In this document: one piece after another, positions 8,983 through 51,925 of the stretch
Layout of the letters: each line of letters starts with the position of its first letter
Numbering within the stretch: the stretch's first letter is position 1
DNA from: Alteriqipengyuania lutimaris
GTDB taxonomy: Bacteria > Pseudomonadota > Alphaproteobacteria > Sphingomonadales > Sphingomonadaceae
Length of the DNA stretch: 64,000 nt
Assembly: GCF_003363135.1 (NCBI RefSeq)
Contig: NZ_QRBB01000002.1
Span: 372,001 to 436,000 of the forward strand
Direction: 5' to 3'
The notes under the pieces: generated by a model
What the model saw: the letters and a program-made list of their open reading frames with translations, nothing else
What the model was told of the DNA's origin: nothing
Databases searched by the model: none
Program-made: the position numbers and the translations under genes

Positions 8983-9867
8983 ATGAATTTACGCCAGATC
9001 GAAGTCTTCCACGCGGTATTCCTCCATGGCACGGTCAGCGCCGCGGCGCGCGCGCTCAACGTGTCGCAGCCGAGCGTCACCAAGGTGCTTCGCCATGCCG
9101 AGAAGTCGTTGGGACTGGATCTTTTCGAGCGGACCAAGGGGCGGCTGATTCCGACGGAAGATGCGCGCACCCTGTTCGGCGAGGTCTCGGACATTCAGGA
9201 TCGCGTGCGCTCGCTGCATCAGGCTTGCCGCAACTTGCGCCAGGGCGAAGGCAGCCTGCTGCGCATTTCGGCCCTGCCCTCGCTGGGGCTCGGCGCTTTG
9301 CCGGAAGCGGTGGCGCGTTTCACCGAAAAGCGAAGCGAAATCCGTTTCGATCTCCAGACGCTTCACCACGACGAGATCGTGCGCAAGCTCTACGAGCGGG
9401 AAACCGATATAGCGATCAGCTTTGAAGTTCCGATTGCCGCACCGGTCGCCCATCAGGTGATCGGCGAAGGGGAATTGGTGGTACTGTTCCGGCCGGAGGA
9501 TATGCCCGATGCGCCCTCGCGCGTCCATCTGGCCGACATGGAGGACAAGAATTTTATCAGTCCGATCCAAAACGGCCCCATCGGCCAATTGCTGCGCAGC
9601 GAACTCGACCGCCTCGAAGTAACGCTGACCGAAAGCGCCTCCTCGCGCACCTATTACATCGCGGCCGCGCTGGTGCGCGCGGGATTGGGCATGGCGATCG
9701 TCGATAATTTCACGGCCGAATCCGCACTGTCGGCAGGGCTCGCCAGCCGCCCGCTCCAGCCCGCCCTGACCTTCGACATAAATGCCGTCTATCTCCAGGC
9801 CCGACCACCTTCGCGCGCCGGTGCCGATTTCCTCGCTCTTCTCGCGGAAGTGATCGACGCGGTATAG
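8983..9867 (+). CDS. LysR-family transcriptional regulator, candidate regulator of the D-amino-acid genes
   Basis: DNA-binding regulator of 294 aa. The start at 8983 gives the canonical LysR opening MNLRQIEVFHAVFLHGT; the upstream ATG-less extension from 8929 lacks family similarity. The winged helix-turn-helix occupies residues ~3-60 (SAAARALNVSQPSVTKVLRHAEKSLGLDLFER in segments), followed by an effector-binding domain from about 90. It is divergent from the D-aminoacylase (164-bp shared promoter region) and 87 bp before dgcN, the classic LysR arrangement for controlling both sides. Effector unknown; an N-acyl or D-amino acid is the natural guess. Confidence 0.92.
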   Translation: MNLRQIEVFHAVFLHGTVSAAARALNVSQPSVTKVLRHAEKSLGLDLFERTKGRLIPTEDARTLFGEVSDIQDRVRSLHQACRNLRQGEGSLLRISALPSLGLGALPEAVARFTEKRSEIRFDLQTLHHDEIVRKLYERETDIAISFEVPIAAPVAHQVIGEGELVVLFRPEDMPDAPSRVHLADMEDKNFISPIQNGPIGQLLRSELDRLEVTLTESASSRTYYIAAALVRAGLGMAIVDNFTAESALSAGLASRPLQPALTFDINAVYLQARPPSRAGADFLALLAEVIDAV

Positions 9868-9954
9868 CCCGACGCTATGCCCCCGATGGGACACGCCATC
9901 TGGGTGAGCCGAACGCATCGAAGTAAAGTCGCCCTTTCTTTCGACATGCGGGCT

Positions 9955-10980
9955 ATGATGATCGCGACACCCTATCTCCTCTATCTCGGCAATTCGACCG
10001 ATCCCTACGCCATCAAGACCGCGCGCGGCCTGGCGGTTTTTCGACCCGAACGATGCGTGGCCGAATTTCGCCGCGACGACTGCGCGCTGACGCTCGGGCT
10101 TCCGAGGATGACGTTCGCCGAGGCGGCTGCGAGCGGCGCGCGCACGATGGTGCTCGGCATCGTGAATTCGGGCGGCACGCTCGACAACGACGTCCTGGAG
10201 GACGCGATCGAGGCGATGGATGCAGGGCTGGACCTTGCCTCAGGCCTGCATCGGCGGTTGAAGGACGAGCCGCGCCTGGTGGAAGCCGCGCGGCGGACAG
10301 GCCGTCACCTTCACGACGTTCGCGATCCGCCTACCGGGCTGATGGTCGGGACGGGCGATCCACGACCGGGCAATCGCCTGCTGACTGTCGGGACCGATTG
10401 CTCTTCCGGCAAGATGTATACGACGCTGGCGCTTGAGCGCGGGATGGAAGCGCGCGGCGTCGCCTGCGATTTCCGCGCGACGGGACAGACTGGCATACTC
10501 GTCGCGGGTGCGGGCATCCCGCTCGACGCGGTGGTGGCCGATTTCATTTCCGGCGCGATCGAACAGCTCGCCCCCGCCCGCCATGACGCGGGCTGGGATC
10601 TGATCGAAGGGCAGGGATCGCTCTTCCACCCTTCTTTCGCCGGCGTTTCGACCGGTCTGCTGCATGGTGCCCAGCCCGCAGCGCTCGTCATGTGCCACGA
10701 TCCGACCCGGCGCGTGATGCGAGGTCTGGCGCATCGCGCACCGCCCGGACTGGCCGACTGTATCGCCGCGAACCTTGCGACTGCCCGGCTCACCAGCCCC
10801 GATGTCCGCATGATCGGAATCGCCCTCAACACGTCGAGCCTCGACCAGAACGACGCGATCGCACTCTGTCTGCGCCTGCAGGACGAACACGGCCTGCCCT
10901 GTACCGATCCGCACCGGATGGGCGTGGAGCCGATCCTCGACGCGCTGCTCGGTCCGGCGGAAGGGGTGGCACGGGCCTGA
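9955..10980 (+). CDS. dgcN: DUF1611 family protein, probable D-glutamate N-acetyltransferase DgcN
   Basis: DgcN proteins acetylate D-glutamate as the first step of a D-Glu catabolic route described in marine Proteobacteria and haloarchaea. The start is chosen at the first of two adjacent ATGs (9955/9958), giving the family opening MIATPYLLYLGN; an upstream frame to 9877 looks non-coding. A Walker-A-like GTDCSSGKM lies at about residues 146-154, typical of the C-terminal DUF1611 P-loop domain, and the N-terminal Rossmann-like domain precedes it. Its stop codon overlaps the dgcA start by one base. The co-occurrence with a dipeptide-epimerase homologue is what makes DgcN the preferred name. Confidence 0.82.
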   Translation: MMIATPYLLYLGNSTDPYAIKTARGLAVFRPERCVAEFRRDDCALTLGLPRMTFAEAAASGARTMVLGIVNSGGTLDNDVLEDAIEAMDAGLDLASGLHRRLKDEPRLVEAARRTGRHLHDVRDPPTGLMVGTGDPRPGNRLLTVGTDCSSGKMYTTLALERGMEARGVACDFRATGQTGILVAGAGIPLDAVVADFISGAIEQLAPARHDAGWDLIEGQGSLFHPSFAGVSTGLLHGAQPAALVMCHDPTRRVMRGLAHRAPPGLADCIAANLATARLTSPDVRMIGIALNTSSLDQNDAIALCLRLQDEHGLPCTDPHRMGVEPILDALLGPAEGVARA

Positions 10981-39868: not shown

Positions 39869-40000
39869 TCGATATTGTCCCAATAATGGAAAGAAATTTT
39901 CCCCAAGAGCATTGCAATCGGTAAATGATTGCGACAGGGAATTTCACCTATGCGGCCCTATCCCCCTGGCGGCCGTATCCCAAAACCCTAGAGGAAATTG

Positions 40001-40444
40001 ATGGAAGACCAAGATATCGAAATGACGCAGACGCTTATCGCGTTCACGTCGAACATCGTTGAAGCATATGTCAGTAATAATTCGGCGGAACTCGACGACG
40101 TTCCGGTGCTGATCAACAGTGTCTATTCGGCATTGTCTGGCCTCAGCAGCGGTGCCGAAGAGGAAGAGCCGCGCCCCGAACCTGCGGTGTCCGTCCGCGC
40201 GTCGGTGAAGCCCGACTATCTCGTCTGTCTCGAAGACGGCAAGAAGCTGAAGATGCTCAAGCGCTATCTGCGCACCAATTACGACATGAGCCCCGAGGAA
40301 TATCGCGAGCGCTGGAACCTGCCGAGCGATTACCCGATGGTTGCGCCCAACTATGCCGAAAAGCGCCGCGAACTGGCGAAGAAGATCGGCCTTGGTCGCG
40401 CACCGGGCCAGAAGCGCGGTCGTCGCAAGAAAACCGCCGAATAA
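40001..40444 (+). CDS. MucR/Ros-family transcriptional regulator lacking zinc-ligand histidines
   Basis: 147-aa nucleoid-associated regulator. The ATG at 40001 (a TTG sits directly before it) follows GAGGAA. The N-terminal half (residues ~5-50) is the oligomerisation region (TLIAFTSNIVEAYVSNN; VLINSVYSAL); the DNA-binding half contains KPDYLVCLEDGKKLKMLKRYL, then YDMSPEEYRERWNL and PMVAPNYAEKRRELAKKIGLG, and a basic RGRRKK tail. The Cys is kept, but the positions normally occupied by zinc-binding His (KRHL, THH) read KRYL and TNY. It probably folds without zinc, as known for some MucR homologues. It likely controls surface and cell-cycle genes broadly. Confidence 0.93.
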   Translation: MEDQDIEMTQTLIAFTSNIVEAYVSNNSAELDDVPVLINSVYSALSGLSSGAEEEEPRPEPAVSVRASVKPDYLVCLEDGKKLKMLKRYLRTNYDMSPEEYRERWNLPSDYPMVAPNYAEKRRELAKKIGLGRAPGQKRGRRKKTAE

Positions 40445-40452
40445 TCCGTGCA

Positions 40453-40487
40453 CTCGCCGGTCGGCTGCCAACAGCTCGACCGGCGAG
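40453..40487 (+). terminator. hairpin downstream of mucR-like gene
   Basis: Perfect 11-bp arms CTCGCCGGTCG (40453-40463) and CGACCGGCGAG (40477-40487), 13-base loop, 9 bases after the stop. Only a short CTT follows, so termination may be weak or Rho-assisted. Confidence 0.55.
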
Positions 40488-40544
40488 GCTTGAGCGGGCC
40501 GCGCACCCGTCCTATGCCCCGAGCGAAAGCCTGAGGAATCCCGC

Positions 40545-40967
40545 GTGCCCCATAAAATCGATCTCGAACAGCTGTGTGCCGACAAGGGCCTGCGCATCAC
40601 CGAACAGCGCAAGGTGATCGCGCGCGTATTGTCGGACAGCGAAGACCACCCCGATGTCGAGCAGCTGCACGAGCGTGCCTCGAAGATCGACCCCGGCATC
40701 TCGATCGCGACCGTCTATCGCACGGTCCGCCTGTTCGAAGAGGCCGGCGTGCTCGACCGGCACGATTTCGGCGATGGCCGCTCGCGCTACGAGCCCGCGC
40801 CCGAATCGCACCACGATCACCTGATCGACGTCGAAAGCGGTAAGGTGGTCGAATTCGTCGACCCCGAGCTGGAGGCGCTGCAGAAGCAGATCGCCGAAAA
40901 GCTGGGCTATCGCCTCGTCGACCACCGGATGGAATTATATGGCGTCCGCCTCGAACGCGACAGCTGA
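40545..40967 (+). CDS. fur: Fur-family metalloregulator (alphaproteobacterial Fur/Mur-like)
   Basis: 140-aa repressor responding to iron or manganese. GTG start with GAGGAA 8 bases upstream. The N-terminal winged helix has RITEQRKVIARVL and ISIATVYRTVRLFEEAGVL; the hinge and metal site read YEPAPESHHDHLIDVESGKVVEF. The classical HHDHLICLDCG Cys pair is replaced by Asp-Val-Glu-Ser, and there is no C-terminal CxxC, as in alphaproteobacterial Fur/Mur proteins. Its 3' end overlaps the plsC start by 29 bases. Whether it senses Fe or Mn cannot be decided here. Confidence 0.92.
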   Translation: MPHKIDLEQLCADKGLRITEQRKVIARVLSDSEDHPDVEQLHERASKIDPGISIATVYRTVRLFEEAGVLDRHDFGDGRSRYEPAPESHHDHLIDVESGKVVEFVDPELEALQKQIAEKLGYRLVDHRMELYGVRLERDS

Positions 40968-41877
40968 CAACCGCTCCGACTGGGAACGGCGGCAGGCGGC
41001 CGCCCGCGGCGAGAGGACGCCGATCTCTTTCATGGGCTGGGTCCGCTTGTGGACCCGCACCATCGCGCTGGTTGTCGTGATGATGCTGTTCGTCATCCCA
41101 CTCTATGTCACGCGAATCTTCACCTACGGATCGCCGTGGCCCAAGTGGTACCTGGCGATTGCCGCATGGATCGTGGGCGCGCGGGTCGAGCGGCGCGGTA
41201 CGCCGCTGCGGCGCGACGTGTTCTTCATCGCCAACCATGTCAGCTGGGTCGACATCCTGGCGCTGGCAGGCGCCAGCGGCACCGCCTTCGTCGCCAAGGC
41301 CGAGCTGGCCAAGGCACCGCTGGTGGGCTGGCTGTGCTCATTGAACCGCACGGTCTTCGTCCAGCGCGAGGACCGCCTGCGCGTGGCGGACCAGATCAAC
41401 GCGCTGCGCGAGGCGCTGATGGACAACTGGTCGGTCACGGTCTTCCCCGAAGGCACGACGACCGACGGGCACTCGCTGCTGCCGTTCAAGTCCTCGATGC
41501 TCAGCGTCCTCGAACCGCCGCCGCCGGGCGTGCTCGTCCAGCCGGTGGTGATCGACTATGGCGCGATGGCCGAATGGCTCGGCTGGATCGGCGAGGAAGA
41601 CGGGCTCAACAACTACAAGCGCGTGATGGCGCGCAAGGGTACCTTCCCGGTCAAGCTGTTTTTCCTCGAACCCTTCAGCCCGGTCGAGTTCCGCGGCCGC
41701 AAGGCGATCGCGGCCGAGGCGCGCGTTCGGATCGAAGCGTGCCTTCGCGAGACGATGGGCCACGAACTGCGCCCCTTCGACCACGACGTCGCGCCGATCC
41801 GCTACAGCAAGGCCAAGCTGCCGCCGCTGGAGCCCGTCGCTGCTCCCTCCGCTACGGACGATCCCCCCGCGACCTGA
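40939..41877 (+). CDS. plsC: 1-acyl-sn-glycerol-3-phosphate acyltransferase
   Basis: Membrane enzyme that acylates lysophosphatidic acid to phosphatidic acid. The 312 aa include an N-terminal membrane segment (TIALVVVMMLFVIPLYV) and the four acyltransferase blocks; the clearest are block I NHVSWVDIL (HxxxxD; here NHVSWVD), the R-E-D-R stretch, and block III FPEGTTTDG. The ATG lies inside fur, suggesting coupled translation. The C-terminal tail is Pro/Ala-rich and disordered. A later start (MGWVRL, residue 32) would also keep the domain. Confidence 0.92.
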   Translation: MASASNATADNRSDWERRQAAARGERTPISFMGWVRLWTRTIALVVVMMLFVIPLYVTRIFTYGSPWPKWYLAIAAWIVGARVERRGTPLRRDVFFIANHVSWVDILALAGASGTAFVAKAELAKAPLVGWLCSLNRTVFVQREDRLRVADQINALREALMDNWSVTVFPEGTTTDGHSLLPFKSSMLSVLEPPPPGVLVQPVVIDYGAMAEWLGWIGEEDGLNNYKRVMARKGTFPVKLFFLEPFSPVEFRGRKAIAAEARVRIEACLRETMGHELRPFDHDVAPIRYSKAKLPPLEPVAAPSATDDPPAT

Positions 41878-41961
41878 GCGGCATGGCCGTGCCCCCACTA
41901 CGCCCTTCTTAGCGAAGGTTGATTTCGCACCCGGGCCCACGGGGATCGCATTGTACCCGCT

Positions 41962-42645
41962 ATGGATGCCAATACGATGACCGACCAGCGGGTCGAGCAA
42001 TTCGAGAATGTGATCAGGGGGCCGGATTTTCCCTGCGTCGGCGCAAAGTCGGCGCTGGCGAAGGGGAACATGGAGTTCGTCCTCGCGCGCGACCTCACCA
42101 GCGCATGGAACGACATCAAGATTCACGAGGCGCTGATGGCCTGGGCGAAGCGCGACCTGCCCGCCGACCAGCTGCGCAGCCTCGTCGTCATCTTCGACGG
42201 CCCGCTCGACCTCGACGAAAGGGCCTTCGAACAGGCGATGTGGGAGCGATTGCAGTCGCTGTCGGACAAGGACGTGTGGCTCTCGCAAAAGCCCGATCCG
42301 ACCGTCAGCAGCAATCCCGCCGAGCCCGATTTCTCGCTCAGCTTCGGCGGGCAGGCCTTCTTCGTGGTCGGACTGCACCCCAATGCCTCGCGCCCCGCAC
42401 GGCGCTTCCCGAAACCCTCGCTAGTCTTCAACCTCCACGAGCAGTTCGAGTGGCTGCGCAACAGCGGGATGTACGAGCGGATGCGCCAGCGCATCCTCGA
42501 TCGCGACAAATCGCTCGCCGGCGATATCAACCCGATGCTTGCGCGGCATGGGGAGAGCAGCGAGGCCCGGCAATATAGCGGGCGCGCGGTCGACGAAGAC
42601 TGGGCGTGCCCATTCCGGCGGGGCGAGATCAGGAGCATATTTTGA
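41962..42645 (+). CDS. YqcI/YcgG family protein, probable haem-dependent N-hydroxylase (GntA/DcsA-like)
   Basis: 227-aa cytosolic protein of the YqcI/YcgG family. Characterised relatives (GntA of guanitoxin, DcsA of D-cycloserine biosynthesis) are haem enzymes that N-hydroxylate guanidino groups, e.g. of arginine derivatives. Family marks: FPCVGAKSALAKGNMEF near residue 23, FDGPLDLDERAFEQAMWERL, FSLSFGGQAFFVVGLHPNASRP in parts, and PSLVFNLHEQFEWLR with a conserved His. The C-terminus DEDWACPF(R)R is also typical. Its stop overlaps the next gene's TTG start by 4 bases, so the two gene products are probably made together. No biosynthetic cluster surrounds it, so the substrate is open. Confidence 0.85.
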   Translation: MDANTMTDQRVEQFENVIRGPDFPCVGAKSALAKGNMEFVLARDLTSAWNDIKIHEALMAWAKRDLPADQLRSLVVIFDGPLDLDERAFEQAMWERLQSLSDKDVWLSQKPDPTVSSNPAEPDFSLSFGGQAFFVVGLHPNASRPARRFPKPSLVFNLHEQFEWLRNSGMYERMRQRILDRDKSLAGDINPMLARHGESSEARQYSGRAVDEDWACPFRRGEIRSIF

Positions 42646-43232
42646 GCGATGTAGTCGAAATCCCGCCGCGCAGCGGCACCGCCTTCGTGGTGGAGGCCGG
42701 GCAGGCCTTCACCGTGATCGACCCGCAGGGCACGCAGGTGTCCGACATGGTCGCCTATTCGCAGGCCGACGTGCGCGAGGTCATGTCGAACGGGCGAACC
42801 TTCGATTACGAGGAGACGATCCATCTCACTACGGGCAATCGGCTGTGGTCCAACCGGTCGAACGTGATGCTGGAGATCGAGGAGGACAGCCTTGGCCAGC
42901 ACGACTACCTGCTCACCCCGTGCAGCGAGGATACGTTCCGGCACTTCTATCCGGACAAGCCGGTGCACCGGGGCTGCTTCGGCAACTTGGCCGAGGCGCT
43001 GGCGCACTACGGTATCGAGCGCGACGCGATCCCGACCGCGTTCAACATCTTCATGAACGTGCCGGTCGATGGCGGCACGGGCGGGCTCTCGGTCGATCCG
43101 CCCGCGAGCCAGCCGGGCGAGGCGGTGCGCTTCCGCGCGCATATGGACCTGGTGATCGGGCTGACCGCCTGTTCGGCCTATGCTTCGAACGGGGGCAGCT
43201 TCAAGCCGATCCATTACCGGGTCGAAGAATAG
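42642..43232 (+). CDS. DUF1989 / urea carboxylase-associated family protein
   Basis: 196-aa protein of the family often found beside urea carboxylase or guanidine-metabolism genes; biochemical role unsettled. The TTG at 42642 is chosen because AGGAG (42631-42635) lies 6 bases upstream and it overlaps the previous stop as TTGA; a GTG at 42606 has no such signal. Visible family features: GTQVSDMVAYSQAD, the metal-like YLLTPCSEDTFRHFY, NLAEALAHYGI, FNIFMNVPV, and the C-terminal LTACSAYASNGGSFKPIHY. Conserved Cys and His suggest a metal site. Coupling to a YqcI/YcgG hydroxylase suggests it handles an N-hydroxyguanidine-type product; this is inference. Confidence 0.87.
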   Translation: MSDVVEIPPRSGTAFVVEAGQAFTVIDPQGTQVSDMVAYSQADVREVMSNGRTFDYEETIHLTTGNRLWSNRSNVMLEIEEDSLGQHDYLLTPCSEDTFRHFYPDKPVHRGCFGNLAEALAHYGIERDAIPTAFNIFMNVPVDGGTGGLSVDPPASQPGEAVRFRAHMDLVIGLTACSAYASNGGSFKPIHYRVEE

Positions 43233-43253
43233 GCCTCCACAGCTGAAACCCTG

Positions 43254-43347
43254 CCGTCACCCCGGGCCTGACCCGGGGTCGGTGCTTCTTGAAACTGCCC
43301 TGGGGTAAAAAGTGAAGCACCACCCCGGATCAAGTCCGCGGTGACGG
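43254..43347. repeat. palindromic intergenic repeat, copy 1 (GTCACCCCGG family)
   Basis: Long imperfect inverted repeat: left arm 43254-43288 (CCGTCACCCCGGGCCTGACC...) and right arm 43314-43347 (...CAAGTCCGCGGTGACGG) around a 25-base A-rich loop. The same family occurs at 49243-49328. It sits between the DUF1989 gene and miaB, where an accessory insertion meets the backbone. Confidence 0.75.
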
Positions 43348-43401
43348 TGGAGGTGGCAGGAGTTGCGCCCGCCCGTCGCGAAGCGTAAATGCGCGCTTCG
43401 C

Positions 43402-44736
43402 ATGAAACCCACGACTCCTCCCAAGACCTACCGGGTCAAAAGCTTCGGCTGCCAGATGAACGTCTATGATGGCGAGCGGATGGGCGAGCTCCTCGCCGCG
43501 CAGGGCATTACGCCCGCGCCAGAGGGCGAGGACGCCGATCTGGTGGTGCTCAACACCTGCCATATCCGCGAAAAGGCGACCGAGAAGGTCTATTCCGACA
43601 TCGGACGGCTCCGGCGCGAGGATGGCACATCGCCGCTGATCGCGGTCGCGGGCTGCGTCGCCCAGGCGGAGGGCGAGGAGATCATGGCCCGCGCGCCCGC
43701 CGTCTCGATGGTGGTGGGCCCGCAGGCGTACCAGAACCTTCCGGCGATGCTCGAACGCGCGGTGTCCGGCCAGCGCAGCACCGAGATGGACCTTGCCGCC
43801 GAAGCCAAGTTCGCCAGCCTCCCGCAGCGGCGAACCGCCCCCCCGGCGGCGTTCCTCACCATCCAGGAAGGGTGCGACAAGTTCTGCACCTATTGCGTCG
43901 TGCCCTACACCCGCGGCGCAGAGATCAGCCGTCCCTTCGCCGAACTGGTCGCCGAGGCGCAAAGGCTGGTCGAAGGCGGGGCGCGCGAGATCACCCTGCT
44001 CGGCCAGAACGTATCCGCTTGGAGCGGCGAGGACGCGAAGGGCCATCGCACCGGGCTCGCCGGGCTGGTCCGCGAGCTGGCGAAAATCGACGGGCTGGCG
44101 CGCATCCGCTACACCACCAGCCACCCGGCAGACATGGACGAAGAGATCATCGCCGCGCATGGCGAGATCGACAAGCTGATGCCCTTCCTCCACCTGCCGG
44201 TGCAGGCGGGCAATAACCGCGTGCTCAAGGCCATGAACCGCAGCCACACGGTCGAGAGCTACCTCAGGCTGCTCGAACGCTTCCGCGCCGCGCGGCCCGA
44301 TCTGGCGCTGTCGGGCGATTTCATCGTCGGCTTCCCGGGCGAGACCGAGGCCGAGTTCGAGGATACGCTGAAGGTGGTGGACGAGGTCGGCTACGCCCAG
44401 GCGTTCAGCTTCAAATATTCGCCCCGCCCCGGCACCCCTGCGGCAGGGATGGAAGGGCAGGTCGCGCCCAAGGTGCTGAAAGACCGGCTCAAGCGCCTTC
44501 AGGACCGCCTCAACCGCGACCAGCACGCCTTCAACACCGCCAGCGTGGGCCGCACCTGCGAGGTGCTGGTCGAACGCAAGGGCAAGCTGCCGGGCCAGTG
44601 GCTCGGCAAGTCGCCCTGGCTGCAATCAGTGCATTTCGAAAGCGATGCGGCCATCGGCGATCTGGTGCCGGTCACGCTGACCGAAGCCGGGCCCAATTCG
44701 CTGCGCGGGACGGTGCGCGAAAGCGTCGCCGCCTAG
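43402..44736 (+). CDS. miaB: tRNA (N6-isopentenyl adenosine(37)-C2)-methylthiotransferase
   Basis: Radical SAM enzyme adding the 2-methylthio group to i6A37 of tRNAs. Of 444 aa with ATG at 43402, the N-terminal UPF0004 domain binds the auxiliary cluster ([27 protein letters not shown]). The radical SAM motif CDKFCTYC uses Cys158, Cys162 and Cys165. The C-terminal TRAM domain closes with a short RNA-binding stretch. A longer TTG-initiated frame from 43363 would overlap the palindromic repeat and is unlikely. It needs [4Fe-4S] delivery, for which the nearby Nfu protein is a candidate. Confidence 0.97.
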
Positions 44737-50588: not shown

Positions 50589-51755
50589 GTGCCCATTCCC
50601 GCTGCCCGGAACGACTTTCCCGAAATCCGCGACGCCGTGCGCGCGCTGGTCCGGGGGTTCGGCGACAGCTACTTTCGCAAGAAAGACGAAGCGCGCGAAT
50701 ATCCCGAGGAATTCGTCGAGGCGCTGACGAAGGAAGGCTGGATGGCCGCGCTGATTCCCGAGGAATTCGGCGGCGCGGGGCTCGGCCTGACCGAAGCCAG
50801 CATCATCATGGAGGAGATCAACCGGGCGGGCGGCAATTCGGGCGCGTGCCACGGGCAGATGTACAACATGAACACGCTGCTGCGGCACGGCAGCGACGCG
50901 CAGAAGGCGAAGTTCCTCCCCGAGATCGCCAGCGGCGCGCTGCGGCTGCAGAGCATGGCGGTGACCGAGCCGACCACCGGCACCAACACCACCGATCTGA
51001 AGACCCGCGCCGTACGCAAGGGCGATACCTATGTGATTGACGGGCAGAAGGTGTGGATCAGCCGCATCCAGCATTCGGACCTGATGATCCTGCTCGCGCG
51101 CACCACGCCGCGCGACGAGGTGAAAAGGAAGTCCGACGGGCTCTCGATCTTCCTCGTCGACCTGCACGCGGCCATCGGCAACGGGATGGAAATCCGCCCG
51201 ATCCGCAACATGGTCAACCACGAGACCAACGAGGTGTTCTTCGACGCGCTCGAACTGCCCGCGAGCAGCCTGATCGGCGAGGAGGGCAAGGGCTTCCGCT
51301 ACATCCTCGACGGGCTGAACGCCGAACGCGCGCTTATCGCGGCCGAGTGCATCGGCGATGGCTACTGGTTCGTCGAGAAGGCGGCGGAGTATGGCAGCGA
51401 GCGCGTGGTGTTCGACCGGCCGATCGGCCAGAATCAGGGCGTCCAGTTCCCCATCGCGCAGGCCTATATGGAGGTGCGCGCGGCGGACCTGATGCGCTAC
51501 GAGGCGTGCCGCCTGTTCGACGACGGCCAGCCTTGCGGGGCGGAGGCGAACATGGCCAAGCACCTCGCCGCCGAAAGTTCATGGAAGGCAGCTAACGCCT
51601 GCATGCAGACCTTCGGCGGCTTCGGCTTCGCGGCGGAATATGATGTCGAGCGCAAGTTCCGCGAGACGCGGCTCTATCAAGTAGCACCGATCAGTTCGAA
51701 CCTCATTTTAAGCTATGTCGGCGAACACGTGCTCGGAATGCCACGTTCATTTTAG
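50589..51755 (+). CDS. acyl-CoA dehydrogenase family protein
   Basis: 388-aa FAD flavoenzyme catalysing alpha,beta-dehydrogenation of an acyl-CoA. The GTG at 50589 has GGAAGGAA upstream; an upstream frame from 50511 is Pro-rich and unlikely. Marks: LIPEEFGGAGLGLTEASIIMEEI, the FAD/substrate site AVTEPTTGTNTTDLKTRA, NGQ-type VIDGQKVWISRIQHSD, and QTFGGFGFAAEYDVERKFRETRLYQVAPIS, which is the C-terminal FAD motif. The catalytic Glu position cannot be fixed by eye. Substrate chain length or branching is not inferable. Confidence 0.93.
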   Translation: MPIPAARNDFPEIRDAVRALVRGFGDSYFRKKDEAREYPEEFVEALTKEGWMAALIPEEFGGAGLGLTEASIIMEEINRAGGNSGACHGQMYNMNTLLRHGSDAQKAKFLPEIASGALRLQSMAVTEPTTGTNTTDLKTRAVRKGDTYVIDGQKVWISRIQHSDLMILLARTTPRDEVKRKSDGLSIFLVDLHAAIGNGMEIRPIRNMVNHETNEVFFDALELPASSLIGEEGKGFRYILDGLNAERALIAAECIGDGYWFVEKAAEYGSERVVFDRPIGQNQGVQFPIAQAYMEVRAADLMRYEACRLFDDGQPCGAEANMAKHLAAESSWKAANACMQTFGGFGFAAEYDVERKFRETRLYQVAPISSNLILSYVGEHVLGMPRSF

Positions 51756-51925
51756 AATGACACACGCGCTCGCGACGGGAAATTGCGCATCCCATCCATT
51801 CGAGGCGCCTATTTGATTCATTCCTCACTCAGCATAAAGATTCGATATTTGCACAATTCTGCGCAACATCGATGCGAACCGGAACGAATTCGGAACATCC
51901 TCCTCCACTCGTCCCTTGATTAGGT

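Follow-up and report, generated by a model that had tools for sequence, protein, structure and literature searches.

A coupled YqcI/YcgG–DUF1989 gene pair in Alteriqipengyuania lutimaris belongs to a two-gene module found across 14 bacterial phyla

The six characterised bacterial relatives in the YqcI/YcgG family have been described as acting on arginine derivatives; the characterised enzymes hydroxylate guanidino nitrogens and belong to natural-product pathways (PubMed Central [PMC] article PMC12866846). In a 64,000-nucleotide stretch of the Alteriqipengyuania lutimaris genome (contig NZ_QRBB01000002.1, positions 372,001 to 436,000; the window, in whose numbering all positions are given), a gene of this family, here called Y, runs into a gene for a DUF1989 protein, here called D. 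The locus raises the question of whether Y and D form a unit of their own, and what such a unit would do. The two genes proved to be linked and coupled, to occur together in most cases and to be fused repeatedly. The fold and haem-ligand cysteine of Y and the fold and metal residues of D were predicted from sequence and structural models. The sequential action of Y and D, the order of the steps, the substrate class, the reaction of D and the cellular role are what we infer here.

Profile searches placed Y in PF08892 (186 bits against a cut-off of 27) and D in PF09347 (194.6 against 27 bits), DUF1989 being the only domain of D. Each family had a single match in the source genome (3.29 Mb, 12 contigs). 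The TTG start codon of D (42642–42644) overlaps the TGA stop codon of Y (42643–42645), and this start is supported because the same junction reads ATGA in seven of eight congeners and GTGA in the eighth. The arrangement given in the initial annotation, a YqcI/YcgG gene followed by a DUF1989 gene with a TTGA overlap and an AGGAG ahead of D, was present in full by profiles and sequence. The closest Y among the matches listed was 93% identical and came from Alteriqipengyuania. Comparison of eight congeners with the window copy indicated purifying selection on both genes, with ratios of non-synonymous to synonymous substitution rates (dN/dS) of 0.06–0.23 for Y and 0.08–0.23 for D.

Pairing was then counted at increasing phylogenetic distance. 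In 196 Sphingomonadales genomes, D lay 20–53 bp downstream of Y on the same strand for 44 of 52 Y matches; the eight exceptions were in G094, G119, G151, G013 and G118, and were extra copies in G128, G134 and G164. By genome, Y and non-tandem D occurred together in 46, Y only in 2, D only in 2 and neither in 146 (Fisher's test, 8e-40, uncorrected for phylogeny). The remaining 32 D matches in this order comprised 26 in D–D tandems and 6 single genes, and the one tandem identified was UAAP1/UAAP2, that is, CgdAB-like. A phylum survey of 398 genomes, which shared 10 Y-bearing genomes with the order survey, yielded 23 Y matches from 22 genomes, and for 22 of these matches D stood beside Y. The far relatives are the best 80 of 585 loci in named genomes, which were scanned with a pattern built from 14 Y proteins in an alignment headed by Deinococcus; the adjacency rate holds for that clade, in which a QYSG stretch is conserved by construction. 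D was located no more than 400 bp downstream in 66 of these 80 loci, 0.47–0.78 kb downstream in 7 more, upstream in 1 and not beside Y in 6, namely 3 Nitrospira, Uabimicrobium and 2 Streptomyces loci. All three of these Nitrospira carried D elsewhere, in one case beside another copy of Y. According to record titles, which may be wrong for metagenome-assembled genomes (L083), the pair loci came from 14 phyla: Pseudomonadota, Bacteroidota, Verrucomicrobiota, Nitrospirota, Acidobacteriota, Actinomycetota, Gemmatimonadota, Myxococcota, Armatimonadota, Eremiobacterota, Planctomycetota, Bdellovibrionota, Chloroflexota and Deinococcota. A Bacillus subtilis control genome matched both families, probably through ycgG and ycgI, which lie close together. 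Among 14 loci opened from 19 plasmid records with a match, D adjoined Y in 10 and was absent beside Y in 4.

Y and D also occur as one protein. They formed a single open frame in three Nannocystis loci (L081, L092 and L109), and 50 of the best 120 (of 393) homologues of the Nannocystis fusion contained both domains, always in the order Y then D, with more than 150 bits for each domain in 46 of the 50. Five predicted proteins counted as fusions were shorter than 380 residues, and some metagenomic fusions may be artefacts. The fusion proteins among the matches listed (P0241–P0341 range) were spread over several Y-tree branches. This tree has 89 rows; on it the label "fusion" needed 11 changes, and 3 were forced by well-supported branches alone (10 and 2, respectively, without one row that is possibly a fragment), and fusion, or fusion together with splitting, probably happened several times. 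The distances of Y and D were correlated over 89 loci (Mantel r 0.70, 0/999 permutations), a value that owes something to a common species tree as well. The two proteins of Nitrosomonas (L100) were each nearest to Nitrospira, and judging by these relationships the pair there looks like a joint transfer.

A constant third gene was not found: the commonest Pfam family occurred in 4 of 78 immediate-neighbour open reading frames (ORFs) of relatives, and these neighbours vary. When the neighbouring genes of 93 loci were called with a crude gene caller, a GT2/GT21-like glycosyltransferase adjoined the pair in 14 (L086, L087, L090, L091, L094, L095, L096, L098, L106, L107, L112, L130, L151 and L155), in several phyla and in either orientation, with a methyltransferase gene beyond it in some loci; the GT2-like glycosyltransferase is a possible occasional third partner. 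In five Bacteroidota loci (L135, L149, L158, L159 and L160), all among the seven with D 0.47–0.78 kb downstream, a gene of a single family stood between Y and D, which was FMN_bind_2 in L160, the one member scanned. The window pair has neither a glycosyltransferase neighbour nor an intervening gene of the FMN_bind_2 type. With adjacency in 14 phyla, correlated presence, repeated fusion and no constant third gene found, there is strong support for the earlier description of the pair as a free-standing two-gene module.

Other surroundings were seen in single loci. On a Rahnella plasmid (L074), a Y without D heads a run annotated as a short-chain dehydrogenase/reductase (SDR) oxidoreductase, a hypothetical protein, a 2Fe-2S protein, a LysE-family translocator, a phenylalanine--tRNA ligase beta subunit-related protein and a MOSC-domain protein. 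On a Chryseobacterium plasmid (L071), the pair is followed at a distance of about 3 kb by a cyanophycin synthetase gene (9204–10651). In G013 a divergent YqcI match (L058, contig C12, about 51260–51880) lies inside an open frame of 3451 residues, possibly a megaenzyme.

Within the genus, Y was present in 9 of 10 genomes, and the order plsC–Y–D–miaB was kept in 8 of the 9, window included (Table 1); the plsC neighbour upstream was shared with 7 of 8 pair-bearing congeners. In the tenth genome (G779) plsC adjoins miaB upstream, and neither Y nor D was found between them at that site. Outside the genus the flanking genes change and the Y–D pair stays. Thirteen neighbour ORFs between 37250 and 50404, a part of those in that stretch, were scanned against Pfam and proved to be of housekeeping types or without a match: NifU, nitroreductase, TsaD-family (TsaB-like), GNAT acetyltransferase, ROS/MucR, Fur, acyltransferase, MiaB-type radical-SAM, RcnB, PhoH and OmpA, with two ORFs unmatched. 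No guanitoxin or cycloserine gene was among these 13 ORFs, in agreement with the initial annotation, and a guanitoxin or cycloserine locus was rejected. The source genome gave no match to the arginase family PF00491, so arginase-type hydrolysis encoded elsewhere in that genome was likewise rejected. An Rfam scan of 40000–44000 for a riboswitch upstream gave a single sub-threshold match; it was to a viral microRNA model (23.4 against 70 bits), lay downstream of D and was taken as chance.

Table 1. Features of the Y–D locus and its immediate neighbours (window coordinates).
Feature	Position	Strand	Basis
Y (gene 1), YqcI/YcgG-family predicted thiolate-haem N-oxygenase, 227 aa	41962–42645	+	PF08892, NF041366
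D (gene 2), DUF1989 metalloprotein (predicted metal residues), 196 aa, TTG start	42642–43232	+	PF09347
TTGA start-stop overlap, couples D to Y	42642–42645	+	Read from sequence and congeners
AGGAG, Shine-Dalgarno-like, 6 nt before the TTG of D	42631–42635	+	Read from sequence
plsC-type acyltransferase, upstream neighbour, outside the module	40939–41877	+	PF01553 and congener synteny
miaB-type methylthiotransferase, downstream neighbour, outside the module	43363–44736	+	PF00919, PF04055, PF01938

AglA of argolaphos biosynthesis (PMC12866846), alone among the characterised members in having a solved structure, supplies the type structure for haem guanidine N-hydroxylases of the YqcI/YcgG family. 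Structure and conservation were read from alignments of 99 Y and 92 D proteins, a selection that leaves out the plasmid loci, most Sphingomonadales loci and L097, L101 and L123. Y is predicted to adopt an AglA-like sandwich fold, in which C25, present in 99 of 99 Y rows, aligns with Cys44 of AglA and is the predicted haem ligand, and the invariant R147 is a predicted haem-propionate residue. Family, fold and these two invariant residues support the suggestion that gene 1 encodes a haem N-oxygenase, as a prediction. Nitric oxide synthase (NOS) showed a weak fold resemblance to Y, and profiles gave homology no support. Y scored 256.8 bits against the 145-bit cut-off of NF041366, the GntA equivalog model, through which the name guanitoxin N-hydroxylase GntA is applied to pair members. 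Because that name lands on pair members from several phyla, the model looks too wide and its cut-off too permissive. The guanitoxin GntA label for Y is unsupported.

In D, the residues D35, C94, C112 and C177, a predicted metal site of three cysteines and a conserved aspartate, were kept in 92 of 92 rows. They were matched by alignment to the site of Tdm, for whose DUF1989 domain the metal residues have been reported (PMC12560246). D fell far below the cut-offs of the UAAP1 and UAAP2 models TIGR03424 and TIGR03425 (110.6 against 284.7 and 75.6 against 205.95 bits), as did three other pair D proteins, and no match over cut-off to urea/guanidine carboxylase (TIGR02712) was found in the source genome. 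The "urea carboxylase-associated" label that the initial annotation attached to D is hence misleading, and a CgdAB-type role in guanidine catabolism was rejected on the same grounds and on the separate place of D in the family tree. The Tdm model NF053776 also remained below its cut-off (75.9 against 1100 bits).

Our preferred explanation, to which we give an even chance, is that the pair is a conserved two-enzyme module in which Y adds a hydroxyl group to a nitrogen of a small guanidino compound and D then converts what Y has made, probably by hydrolysis. Y, as a cysteine-thiolate haem enzyme, would draw on O2 and on a reductase of the host; since the pair comes without dedicated biosynthetic genes, our first guess at its substrate is arginine or a close relative. 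D, a DUF1989 metalloenzyme in this reading, would take over the labile N-hydroxyguanidino product and, by analogy with the carboxyguanidine deiminase CgdAB, might hydrolyse the guanidine activated by N-hydroxylation to an N-hydroxyurea-type product and ammonia, or to a urea-type product and hydroxylamine. A labile intermediate would suit the repeated fusion of Y and D. For the route that the initial annotation tentatively suggested, the making or detoxifying of N-hydroxyguanidine, hydroxyurea or NO-related compounds, the present data narrow the choice by analogy only. Several observations weigh against the preferred explanation. Y and AglA are no more than distant relatives (33–36 bits; 18–21% identity in fold alignments), so the substrate of Y could differ. 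DUF1989 membership alone does not fix the reaction of D, because the chemistries of CgdAB and Tdm differ; D and CgdAB fall on opposite sides of a branch with a support of 99 (Shimodaira–Hasegawa-like approximate likelihood-ratio test, SH-aLRT), and D has invariant residues of its own (G51, D55, N183 and K188) that differ from CgdAB. H109, the counterpart in D of H276, which has been proposed as an Fe ligand in Tdm, was kept in only 79 of 92 D proteins. Pairing was also less strict in Actinomycetota, where D lay beside Y in 3 of 6 matches over cut-off (198 genomes, 7 matches), and Y exists alone, with no D match at all in Streptomyces L108 and L110, Uabimicrobium L104, G118 and G013.

That the two genes are neighbours by chance, or merely by ancestry without a functional link, is contradicted by the surveys and can be given almost no weight: the plsC and miaB flanks do persist in the genus, where synteny alone can evidently last, but outside it the flanks vary and the pair stays, both genes are missing from the otherwise similar plsC–miaB site in G779, and fusion recurs. 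Chance adjacency was rejected by the order, phylum and far-relative surveys (44/52, 22/23 and 66/80 loci) and by the 50 fused proteins among the 120 homologues. It is improbable that D precedes Y in the reaction or works in parallel with it, or that D regulates or protects Y and does not use its product. Adjacency and fusion show coupling and not reaction order, and several genomes carry Y alone; however, the full set of metal residues in every D row is unlike a degenerate partner, and D is downstream in 73 of the 74 nearby cases among the best 80 of 585 loci, with Y first in all 50 fusions.

Two explanations would keep the module and change its chemistry, and we regard each as unlikely. In one, D would be an iron enzyme and would carry out an oxidative rearrangement of the N-hydroxylated guanidine, with N–N bond formation or release of nitric oxide or nitroxyl (NO/HNO), to a diazeniumdiolate- or NO-type product. 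An SznF-type partner has been proposed to do so beside the YqcI-type ChmN and GrbE (PMC11177257, PMC9679993), and Tdm, which bears a DUF1989 domain, binds both Fe and Zn and has an N-oxide as its substrate (PMC12560246). That known partner is, however, cupin-type (SznF-like) rather than DUF1989 and stands amid non-ribosomal peptide synthetase and polyketide synthase (NRPS/PKS) genes, none of which was seen beside the window pair in the ORFs scanned or was recurrent among the neighbours of relatives, and the histidine proposed as an Fe ligand is not kept in every D protein. In the other, Y would act on a non-guanidine nitrogen (amine, amidine, urea or amide) and D would hydrolyse or eliminate from the product. 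The distance of Y from AglA and the lack of a guanidine-related neighbour common to the pair loci are consistent with this, but the family is described as specialised in guanidine N–H hydroxylation (PMC12866846), and CgdAB, a DUF1989 system, also acts on a guanidine derivative. A wider form of the preferred two-step explanation, which we put forward with considerable doubt, is that the pair constitutes a general NOS-independent pathway of arginine or guanidine oxidation across phyla, in which Y would yield an N-hydroxyguanidine and D would release a reactive nitrogen product, be it hydroxylamine, HNO/NO or an N-hydroxyurea, for signalling, stress response or competition, the labile intermediate being passed between the proteins, hence the fusions.

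Y and D each belong to a known family, and the stand-alone coupled and fused module is a new element; no paper describing the Y–D pair was found in the portions of the open-licence PMC literature searched. The module ties a YqcI/YcgG enzyme type to one metalloenzyme across 14 phyla, with no recurring biosynthetic neighbours found. This tie across phyla, together with fusion in the absence of such neighbours, argues for a basic metabolic reaction, one that is unassigned in that literature. For annotation, it means that neither "guanitoxin GntA" nor "urea carboxylase-associated" is supported on genes of this kind, and the natural Y–D fusion lets the reaction be studied with one protein.

Among known systems, AglA, DcsA, GntA, ChmN, Mhr24 and AmbT are members of natural-product pathways, whereas no such genes were seen among the scanned neighbours of Y, whose partner is a DUF1989 protein. 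DcsB, an arginase homologue, is the partner of DcsA in the D-cycloserine pathway. The two make hydroxyurea from arginine (PMC10214352). They differ from Y–D in that DcsB is of the arginase and not the DUF1989 type; no dcs genes were among the neighbours scanned, and the genome lacks an arginase-family match. ChmN–ChmM and GrbE–GrbD resemble the pair in combining a YqcI N-oxygenase with a separate metalloenzyme (GrbE is paired with GrbD, PMC9679993), but their partner is of the SznF (cupin) type and their genomic setting is another, 107 ChmN homologues co-localising with SznF homologues and with NRPS/PKS genes (PMC11177257).

The closest chemical analogy for D is CgdAB, which has been placed in DUF1989 (PMC11271267) and deiminates guanidine activated by N-carboxylation (N-carboxyguanidine). 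CgdAB is of the same fold family as D, and D shares D35, C94, C112 and C177 with the three UAAP2-like rows of an alignment; CgdA and CgdB form a tandem with a guanidine carboxylase, whereas D is single and has no carboxylase match over cut-off in its genome. In a survey of Nitrospirales, low-identity CgdB matches in two genomes were set aside as likely false positives (PMC12342949); Nitrospira carry D, and these matches may be D. Tdm, the trimethylamine N-oxide (TMAO) demethylase, has a GcvT-like domain that D lacks, but its D198, C263, C279 and C343 correspond to D35, C94, C112 and C177 of D, and Tdm acts on an N–O compound.
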